Origin: Methanomassiliicoccaceae archaeon
Lineage (GTDB): Archaea; Thermoplasmatota; Thermoplasmata; Methanomassiliicoccales; Methanomethylophilaceae
Assembly: GCA_034928305.1 (NCBI GenBank)
Contig: JAYFOZ010000001.1
Coordinates: 237,255-301,254 of the forward strand
Length of the DNA: 64,000 nucleotides
Direction: 5' to 3'
The notes under the pieces were generated by a model. It saw nothing but the letters and a program-made list of their open reading frames with translations. It was not told where the DNA came from and searched no databases. Positions 19,629 through 23,935 of the stretch are shown here, piece by piece. Numbering within the stretch: position 1 is the first letter of the stretch; every line of letters begins with the position of its first letter. The translations under genes were made by a program, and so were the position numbers.

Positions 19629-19815
19629 GGAACAATGTCATCGAGTGTCTGTATATAATAAGGCGCAGGTGGAAAAACGCTGCGGAAATATCGATGGTCC
19701 GGCTCCCGGCCATTCGTTACAAACGGGAGAAGGAATTGAAAAACGGACGGTGCGCCCGCATGTGTATCGGTATTTTTGGTCTATCTTAGATATTTGCCTC
19801 ATATTTTTCTAATTA

Positions 19816-19891
19816 TAAATCATTTGTCGGTAAATTGATTTTAAATTAGACATTTGTCAAATTATTAATATATGATTAGACATTTGTCTAA
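19816..19891 (+). promoter_or_regulatory. Three 30-bp-phased operator-like repeats and TATA box of amt-glnK
   Basis: A perfect inverted repeat TTAGACA-TT-TGTCTAA occupies 19876-19891. A second, TTAGACA-TT-TGTCAAA, occupies 19846-19861, and a weaker copy with core CATTTGTC is centred at 19823-19824. The three centres are exactly 30 bp apart. The TATA element ATTAATATATGA (19863-19874) lies between the last two, so bound protein would cover both TATA box and transcription start. The sequence differs from the NrpR operator pattern GGAA-N6-TTCC. Confidence 0.6.
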
Positions 19892-19951
19892 TTAGCCTCA
19901 ATCGCAATGAATAGATTGATCGAAAATGAGGCGAACGGATGGAGGTTTAAG

Positions 19952-21289
19952 ATGAAATTGGGAATAATGATCGCGATCGTCGCAGTTGCAATCACATCGG
20001 TGTCGCTCTTCCTTTTACCGGAGGTGTCAGCGGAAACCGCTGGAATACTGGCGGAGGATGCCGCGGGCGTACTGGACCATACCGATATGACGTGGGTGCT
20101 CGTAGCGACCATATTGGTATTCATGATGGCTCCCGCCTTGGCGTTGTTCTATGGAGGGATGCTCAGGAAGCAAAGCATGACCTCCACCATCGCCCAGTGC
20201 ATTATGGGGGTCGCGCTGGTTTTCGTCATATGGGTGTTCGTAGGATACTCTTTGGCCTTCAGCGGGGACTTCGGCGGCTTCATAGGGGACCTGGGTTTCG
20301 CACTCATGTACAACGTACCGTACGATTCGAGTTCTTTGGGCCTGACGATACCCGATATGGAGTTCCTGATGTTCCAGGGAATGTTTGCAGGGGTGACCGC
20401 ATGCATCGTGATCGGCGCCAGCGCAGAGAGGGCGAGGTTCTCGGCCATAATGCTGTTCCTGGCCCTCTGGTCCGTCCTGGTGTACGCCCCTATGGCGCAT
20501 ATGGTATGGGGAGGCGGGCTGCTCTCGACGGCGGGAGGCCATATCGTATCTCTCGATTACGCAGGAGGAACGGTTGTCCACATATGTGCGGGAATAACCG
20601 GCGTTGCGATCGCGATGGTCCTCGGAAAGAGGAGCAGCAGGACGATTAAGGACAGGCCTCACAGCATCCCCTGGATGTATCTCGGGGCAATACTGCTGTG
20701 GCTGGGATGGATCGGTTTCAACGGAGGGTCCGGGCTAGCGGTCAACGAGACATTGGTGATCGTCATCGCGACGACCATCATCAGCTCGATGGTCGCAATG
20801 CTGGCATGGGGCGCGGTGCAGGTGTTGCACGCGGGGCGCGTTAGCGTTTCGGGCATGTGCGCGGGCTTCCTGTCGGGATTGGTCGCCATCACTCCGGCAT
20901 GTGCGTTCGTCAGTCCGGCGTCCGCCGCACTCATCGGCGCTGTGGCTGCGATCATATGCTACTTCGGAGTGATATTCATGAGAAAGAGATCGGGAGTGGA
21001 CGATGCGCTGGACGTGTTCGGGATACACGGCATCGGAGGCATATGGGGGGCGATCGCCACAGGCATATTCGCATCTTCCATGCTGACCGACACTCCCGGG
21101 CTCATCGACGGAGGGGTCGATCTGTTCGCGGGGCAGCTGGTAGCCGTAGGGTTCACGCTGGCGTACTGTTTCGCAGTCTCCTTCGTGATAATGAAGGCCA
21201 TTTCCCTCGTGATGAGGATACGTTACACCGAGGACGAGGAACTGATAGGCGGAGATATCGCAGAGCACGGAGAGTCTGCGTACAACTGA
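19952..21289 (+). CDS. amt: Ammonium transporter
   Basis: Membrane channel for ammonium uptake, 445 aa, about eleven transmembrane helices after a cleavable signal peptide (MKLGIMIAIVAVAITSV to about residue 27). The twin pore histidines are in YAPMAHMVWGGG and DVFGIHGIGGIWG. ATG 19952 is preferred over 19907 because GGAGG is 6 bases upstream and it begins the signal peptide directly. GlnK follows after 9 bases and is expected to plug the cytoplasmic pore when nitrogen is sufficient. Confidence 0.95.
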   Translation: MKLGIMIAIVAVAITSVSLFLLPEVSAETAGILAEDAAGVLDHTDMTWVLVATILVFMMAPALALFYGGMLRKQSMTSTIAQCIMGVALVFVIWVFVGYSLAFSGDFGGFIGDLGFALMYNVPYDSSSLGLTIPDMEFLMFQGMFAGVTACIVIGASAERARFSAIMLFLALWSVLVYAPMAHMVWGGGLLSTAGGHIVSLDYAGGTVVHICAGITGVAIAMVLGKRSSRTIKDRPHSIPWMYLGAILLWLGWIGFNGGSGLAVNETLVIVIATTIISSMVAMLAWGAVQVLHAGRVSVSGMCAGFLSGLVAITPACAFVSPASAALIGAVAAIICYFGVIFMRKRSGVDDALDVFGIHGIGGIWGAIATGIFASSMLTDTPGLIDGGVDLFAGQLVAVGFTLAYCFAVSFVIMKAISLVMRIRYTEDEELIGGDIAEHGESAYN

Positions 21290-21298
21290 GGTGATGAC

Positions 21299-21616
21299 AT
21301 GAAAATGATAGTGGCGATAATCCGCCCGGAAAGGCTCCAGAACGTAAAGGATGCGCTCAGGTGCAACGGCATAATGGGCATGACAATGGTCCAGGTGAAG
21401 GGAAGAGGTTCCCAATCGGGGATAAACATCTCCACCAGGACCGGAATCTTTCGTGTGGACGAGATAGAGAAGGTCATGCTGGAGATAGTCGTGGAGGACG
21501 ACCAGAAGCAACTGACCATAGATACCGTAAAGGAGGCTGCGCTGACGGGACACATAGGCGACGGGCGCATATTCGTAATACCGGTCGAAGAATCGATAAA
21601 AGTTCACGATGAATGA
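21299..21616 (+). CDS. glnK: PII nitrogen regulatory protein
   Basis: Senses ATP/ADP and 2-oxoglutarate and regulates Amt. The 105-residue protein has the PII core VKGRGSQSG (T-loop start), the T-loop base RVDEIEKVMLEIVV and the nucleotide-binding TGHIGDGRIFVIPVEE. The tyrosine that bacteria uridylylate in the T-loop is absent (the loop reads INISTRTGIF), so control must be by ligands alone, as usual in archaea. A hairpin terminator follows. Confidence 0.95.
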   Translation: MKMIVAIIRPERLQNVKDALRCNGIMGMTMVQVKGRGSQSGINISTRTGIFRVDEIEKVMLEIVVEDDQKQLTIDTVKEAALTGHIGDGRIFVIPVEESIKVHDE

Positions 21617-23506: not shown

Positions 23507-23935
23507 TTATGTGCAATCGTCGGAACAGGCATCCTCTACTTTTAGCAGTATATCTGTGAGTGCGATTAAGTTCGATTCACCGGTGGACGATTTTATATAT
23601 TCTTGAGCTTCGAGCCACAATGTTTCTGCAAAATCTAATTTCTCCCTACCGAGATCTGTCAACAAAAGTTGTCTTTTTCGCACTCCCGTTTCGGAAATAT
23701 CGGAAACATAGCCGCTATCTTCAAGCGATTTTAAATTTCTAACCAGAGTAGTTCTGTCTAATTGACATCTGATTGCCAATTGGCTGACTGTGACAGGAGC
23801 TAACGTAGTGAGGTGTTCCATCAGTGAGAATTGCGAAACACTTATTCCGCTCGGCGATAAGTATTTGTTATATGTTTTTGTGATAGCATTCGAGGCTCTG
23901 CGCACCTTTGAGCAATGACATATATTTTCTTCCAT
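23507..23935 (-). CDS. MarR-family transcriptional regulator with cysteine-tipped ends
   Basis: A 142-residue winged-helix regulator. The DNA-reading region is VTVSQLAIRCQLDRTTLVRNLKSLEDSGYV, and the wing follows with RKRQLLLTDLGREKL. Unusually both termini carry cysteines: C6-H7-C8 at the start and C137-x3-C141 at the end, which in a dimer could form a metal or thiol sensor. A strong ribosome site AAGGAGAT precedes the ATG. The gene is markedly AT-rich. It converges on DUF1638, whose promoter carries a MarR-sized palindrome, so it is the obvious candidate regulator. Confidence 0.88.
   Translation of the reverse strand: MEENICHCSKVRRASNAITKTYNKYLSPSGISVSQFSLMEHLTTLAPVTVSQLAIRCQLDRTTLVRNLKSLEDSGYVSDISETGVRKRQLLLTDLGREKLDFAETLWLEAQEYIKSSTGESNLIALTDILLKVEDACSDDCT

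Follow-up and report, generated by a model that had tools for sequence, protein, structure and literature searches.

A perfect 16-bp palindrome and weaker copies of it precede the ammonium transporter gene amt and the adjacent PII gene glnK of a Methanomethylophilaceae archaeon, and the question raised by this locus is which regulator binds them. The usual nitrogen repressor of methanogens is NrpR, with the operator GGAA-N6-TTCC. The original prediction, made from the window (the whole 64-kb stretch of DNA that was analysed), was that a nitrogen regulator other than NrpR may act here, in a cooperative manner, but no protein was named. This idea is supported by the comparisons described below, in which the evidence points to the Lrp/AsnC family.

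The operator array of the amt-glnK promoter

The features of the promoter and of the two genes that follow it are listed in Table 1. The perfect site, its degenerate copy and a weaker third copy had been recognized at 30-bp steps, with a TATA box between the last two repeats, and all of these match the sequence. The array of three was present as described but incomplete in number: a fourth element (11 of 14 positions matched), exactly 30 bp beyond the third, had been overlooked. Among spacings of 17-65 bp, 30 bp scored highest at this promoter, and none of 200 shuffles scored as high. The earlier amt start at 19907 that appears in the list of open reading frames is probably not used.

Table 1. 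Features of the amt-glnK locus (window coordinates)
Feature	Coordinates	Strand	Remarks
Operator site 1	19876..19891	.	TTAGACANNTGTCTAA; perfect palindrome TTAGACA-TT-TGTCTAA, 0 of 14 mismatches; conserved in genus and family
Operator site 2	19846..19861	.	TTAGACATTTGTCAAA; 1 mismatch of 14; 30 bp 5′ of site 1
Weak element 3	19816..19831	.	TAAATCATTTGTCGGT; 6 mismatches (8/14 matched); in 30-bp register; kept only in G001
Element 4	19786..19801	.	TTAGATATTTGCCTCA; 3 mismatches (11/14 matched); in 30-bp register
TATA-like box	19865..19872	+	TTAATATA; begins 11 bp before site 1
Shine-Dalgarno-like GGAGG	19941..19945	+	Ahead of the amt start codon (19952)
amt	19952..21289	+	Ammonium transporter, 445 aa; PF00909, E 1.3e-106; TIGR00836 above cut-off
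glnK	21299..21616	+	PII nitrogen signal protein, 9 bp past amt; PF00543, E 7.3e-25

The two strong sites are kept in all four aligned amt promoters of the genus, and the two outer elements are discernible only in the closest relative (G001). The third element has as many mismatches as 368 places in the window do and is at chance level by itself; it is therefore counted only as a member of the array. It is possible, if somewhat doubtful, that both outer elements are chance AT-rich matches and that amt is occupied by no more than one or two dimers, which would be compatible with regulation by an Lrp protein, and neither element can be made out in G003 or G004. Against a chance origin, the fourth element is the only place in the window with three mismatches and lies in exact register, and in another genome (G050) two perfect sites are found 60 bp apart ahead of amt.

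Distribution of the motif and its target genes

The genome set consisted of 41 genomes, the window's own and 40 relatives. The motif occurs with at most one mismatch in 24 of them, and a control with the reversed pattern gave 0-1 matches per genome. Just three such places exist in the genome from which the window comes (1.34 Mb, 99% complete), two of them preceding amt and the third preceding archaeal GOGAT; a site with two mismatches lies ahead of the type III glutamine synthetase gene (GSIII). In the relatives, the site adjoins amt, GSIII, GOGAT, gdh, nifH or lrp at 45 of 52 loci inspected (checked with Pfam), and in a further batch, nine of 12 loci with a site were amt, GSIII or gdh. The matrix (PWM) built from 50 sites is a clean 16-bp palindrome with WW at the centre of nearly all 50; weak sites were scored by match counts because a hard-penalty PWM is too strict for them. 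Conservation of the repeat before amt in relatives, the first of two points on which the prediction of a different regulator was to stand or fall, was thus found, and it extends to GSIII, GOGAT, gdh and nifH. Judged by these comparisons of sequence together with those of the following sections, the repeat is very probably a conserved nitrogen-gene operator, bound by a regulator of the Lrp/AsnC family, in Methanomethylophilaceae and in one or more other families of Methanomassiliicoccales.

In several genera, a hypothetical protein of about 308 residues with no NCBIfam match is encoded divergently from GSIII (L042:1367-2290, L048, L061, L066, L072, L192); its gene shares the intergenic region of the operator and may belong to the regulon. 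One pair of sites (2303-2318 and 2725-2740 of L060, in G015) is located in about 1.3 kb without a clear gene. A comparable pair in G043 (L184) is upstream of amt, and the L060 pair may be a remnant of an amt locus that was lost. The possibility that L060 encodes a nitrogen-regulated small RNA was considered and rejected, there being no Rfam match and the G043 pair preceding amt.

Spacing and helical phase

The spacing of the elements was scanned in 32 contexts that remained after thinning by genus and target. Repeats of the core ACANNTGT were found at +31 (z 5.3; none of 300 shuffles reached the maximum) and, symmetrically on either side, at distances of 31 and 62 bp. The step is thus 30 bp in the window's genus, and 31 and 62 bp across genera. 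Archaeal Lrp proteins bind imperfect palindromes of 13-17 bp that have AT-rich centres and are spaced two or three helical turns apart (PMC2995911). The operator described here has the corresponding attributes of an Lrp/AsnC site, being a 16-bp inverted repeat with a WW centre that recurs in steps of 30, 31 or 62 bp, and the weaker copies at about 31 and 62 bp fit Lrp dimers lying side by side.

Families f2-f5 carry the Lrp ortholog, and no excess of sites with up to two mismatches was detected in them. In several amt promoters of f2 and f5, three weak sites follow one another at intervals of exactly 31 bp, which is the best of all spacings for L166, L170 and L173. These arrays look like the same system with weaker sites, the least secure step of the analysis. 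Upstream of the weak arrays, the amt promoters L166, L169 and L170 (f2, f5) contain a second conserved palindrome, GGAATC-NTTT-GATTCC, of which L167 has a half-copy; NrpR is absent from f2 and f5.

The candidate regulator and its alternatives

An Lrp/AsnC regulator appears most likely to be the protein that binds the operator and is the best candidate. In the window's genome it is encoded outside the window (G000:C1:102719-103171), and it is 63% identical to the ortholog of G010, in which the N-terminal AsnC-type helix-turn-helix (HTH; PF13404/PF13412) and the C-terminal RAM domain (AsnC_trans_reg, PF01037) all score above cut-off. The DVTG..D and KTNT positions of the RAM domain are nearly invariant among 39 orthologs, with no secure match to D102 and K126 of Sa-Lrp from Sulfolobus acidocaldarius. 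Searching with the Lrp protein gave named records from Methanomethylophilaceae, Methanomassiliicoccaceae and Thermoplasmata MAGs.

Co-occurrence of the regulator and the motif was evaluated in 102 genomes of the family, with those at least 90% complete as the main comparison. Of the latter, all 32 that encode the ortholog have the motif, versus one of 13 that lack it (Fisher p about 5e-10 when genomes are counted as independent, an optimistic value because they are related). In the exception, G006, both hits are inside genes. Across all 102 genomes, four have the ortholog and no site with one mismatch or fewer (G044, G054, G066, G075; two of these have GSIII sites with two or three mismatches), and eight have sites without the ortholog, seven being 61-87% complete and the eighth being G006. 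Lrp has been lost within genera g4 and g5, other members of which keep both Lrp and motif; therefore, the loss was not a single event. Eight Lrp-less genomes (G064, G079, G081, G082, G086, G087, G090, G092) retain GSIII, and seven of them retain amt, yet their GSIII promoters have no site better than four mismatches. Judging from this gene content, the absence of the motif there is not merely due to loss of the target genes.

The presence of the motif next to the regulator's own gene varies among genomes. A strong site is found 14-28 bp ahead of lrp in G010, G015 and G022, genomes in which lrp and an alaX-like gene are divergently oriented. In family f6 (G029, G032, G035, G038), a strong site precedes or abuts the same lrp gene. 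No motif lies upstream of lrp in the window's genome or in several other genera, so autoregulation is not universal. A site with two mismatches inside the lrp coding region of the window's genome (102792) falls in the HTH codons and was set aside as a coincidence. The alaX-like gene, which encodes alanyl-tRNA editing domains, is divergent from lrp in several genera (L049:2566-3732, L056, L082, L084, L085) and may be co-regulated with it.

It is unlikely, though conceivable, that the nitrogen operator is bound by another transcription factor that was lost in the same lineages as Lrp. Genes that are lost together cannot be separated by a shared phylogenetic profile, the factors compared were only the neighbouring MarR gene and weaker Lrp paralogs, and the absence of a site ahead of lrp in the window's own genome would be in keeping with a different factor. 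On the other side are the strong site directly ahead of lrp in several genera and family f6, and the 31-bp phasing, which is an Lrp trait. The two factors compared were both rejected: the MarR gene, the regulator gene nearest amt, occurs in none of the other 40 genomes, and second Lrp paralogs are also encoded by genomes that lack the motif. The MarR-family gene itself (23507-23935, minus strand) has no counterpart even in five relatives of the same genus and is probably a recent arrival.

It is highly improbable that the palindrome functions as an RNA hairpin (a leader or attenuator) rather than as DNA bound by a protein. A perfect inverted repeat could fold as RNA, but at GOGAT and some GSIII promoters the site is upstream of the TATA box and should not be transcribed; moreover, the PWM shows base identity to be conserved beyond what pairing requires, and degenerate copies recur in helical phase. 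Control by NrpR through a variant site is excluded in practice for these genomes, unless its role has passed to a protein lacking PF01995: although the target genes are of the same kind as those of NrpR in other methanogens (PMC3584215), the NrpR domain PF01995 is missing from all 41 genomes in a search that was positive in M. jannaschii and M. acetivorans, and GGAA-N6-TTCC is, as originally noted, absent near amt, its two copies in the window (53034 and 60895) being about what chance would give. The second outcome that would have refuted the original prediction, NrpR sites being responsible, was therefore not observed either.

Promoter geometry and a possible mode of regulation

With an Lrp/AsnC protein as the preferred candidate, the position of the operator relative to the TATA box suggests how it may act. 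About half of eighteen amt promoters, in several genera, have a TATA-like box that begins exactly 11 bp ahead of the site. In all six GOGAT promoters read, such a box begins at +50 or +51, counted from the first base of the site, and in six of 14 GSIII promoters, mostly in the window's genus, it begins at +61; the difference between the two offsets (50 versus 61 bp) is about one helical turn. Since the amt site lies between the TATA box and the expected transcription start, binding should repress, whereas the location of the GOGAT and some GSIII sites upstream of the TATA box fits activation, as in Ptr2 and others (PMC2995911).

An Lrp dimer is envisaged to bind each 16-bp site, and adjacent dimers may interact and have the DNA wrapped around them, in the manner of other archaeal Lrp proteins, with a cooperativity that the phased sites would imply. 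At amt-glnK, site 1 is between the TATA box and the expected start, so that bound Lrp would block initiation and repress transcription; where the site precedes the TATA box, as at GOGAT and some GSIII promoters, this protein may instead act as an activator. The C-terminal domain probably responds to glutamine or a similar amino acid, with glutamine the likeliest effector in view of Sa-Lrp and of Grp from S. tokodaii, and amt-glnK would thus be off when nitrogen is plentiful. A broader proposal is that in Methanomassiliicoccales an Lrp-family protein has replaced NrpR as the master regulator of nitrogen, repressing amt-glnK, activating GSIII and GOGAT from helically phased sites ahead of the TATA box and assembling on arrays with a site every 30-31 bp, and that regulator and operators have been lost together several times; this proposal is tentative, and we hold it with a little less than even confidence.

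Comparison with known systems

Lrp proteins that act on nitrogen genes are already known (Sa-Lrp, halobacterial Lrp). Sa-Lrp binds the promoters of gltB, gdhA and three glnA genes, responds to glutamine as effector, and bends and wraps DNA; its deletion left gltB expression unchanged (PMC3584215). Like the candidate, Sa-Lrp and Grp (ST1022, PDB 2e7w) are archaeal Lrp/AsnC proteins, and Grp aligns over the length of the candidate. In contrast to the degenerate AT-rich stretches bound by Sa-Lrp, the operator described here is a sharp 16-bp palindrome almost confined to nitrogen genes, and its targets, unlike those of Sa-Lrp, include amt-glnK and nifH.

The NCBIfam model nearest to the candidate is the haloarchaeal Lrp NF041396, but its score of 86 bits is below the cut-off of 190; therefore, the candidate does not belong to that family. 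In Halobacterium salinarum, Lrp induces glnA (PMC2894021). A point against a nitrogen role is that the amount of Haloferax Lrp did not respond to nitrogen source (PMC8229911). The halobacterial lrp gene adjoins glnA, whereas here lrp adjoins the alaX-like gene, and amt, a target here, is unmentioned in the H. salinarum study (PMC2894021). Palindromic sites at regular intervals of two or three helical turns are shared with Ptr2 of M. jannaschii and Ss-LrpB of S. solfataricus, which activate from sites upstream of the BRE/TATA elements (PMC2995911), but their site sequences and their targets (ferredoxin and rubredoxin; por genes and permeases) are different. The NrpR regulon resembles the present one in that a single operator precedes amt-glnK, glnA and nif genes of methanogens, but both the operator and the protein family are different.

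A literature search on Methanomassiliicoccales with NrpR, Lrp or nitrogen regulation returned nothing relevant, and in the literature searched no description was found of such a sharp operator, of a compact nitrogen regulon that includes amt-glnK and nifH, or of replacement of NrpR in a methanogen order. For these methanogens, which lack NrpR, the analysis supplies a named candidate regulator, an operator sequence and a list of targets over about 100 genomes, and the Lrp-less genomes constitute natural loss mutants. If the assignment is correct, this would be an archaeal Lrp whose site is sharp and readable, as opposed to the degenerate sites of Sa-Lrp, and whose nitrogen regulon is compact, and one protein family would have taken over from another the control of a single pathway.

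Two minor observations may be added. A search for plasmids gave no match. A gene for a METTL5-like methyltransferase lies across the operator from GOGAT (L003, L036, L044) or gdh (L063), transcribed divergently.
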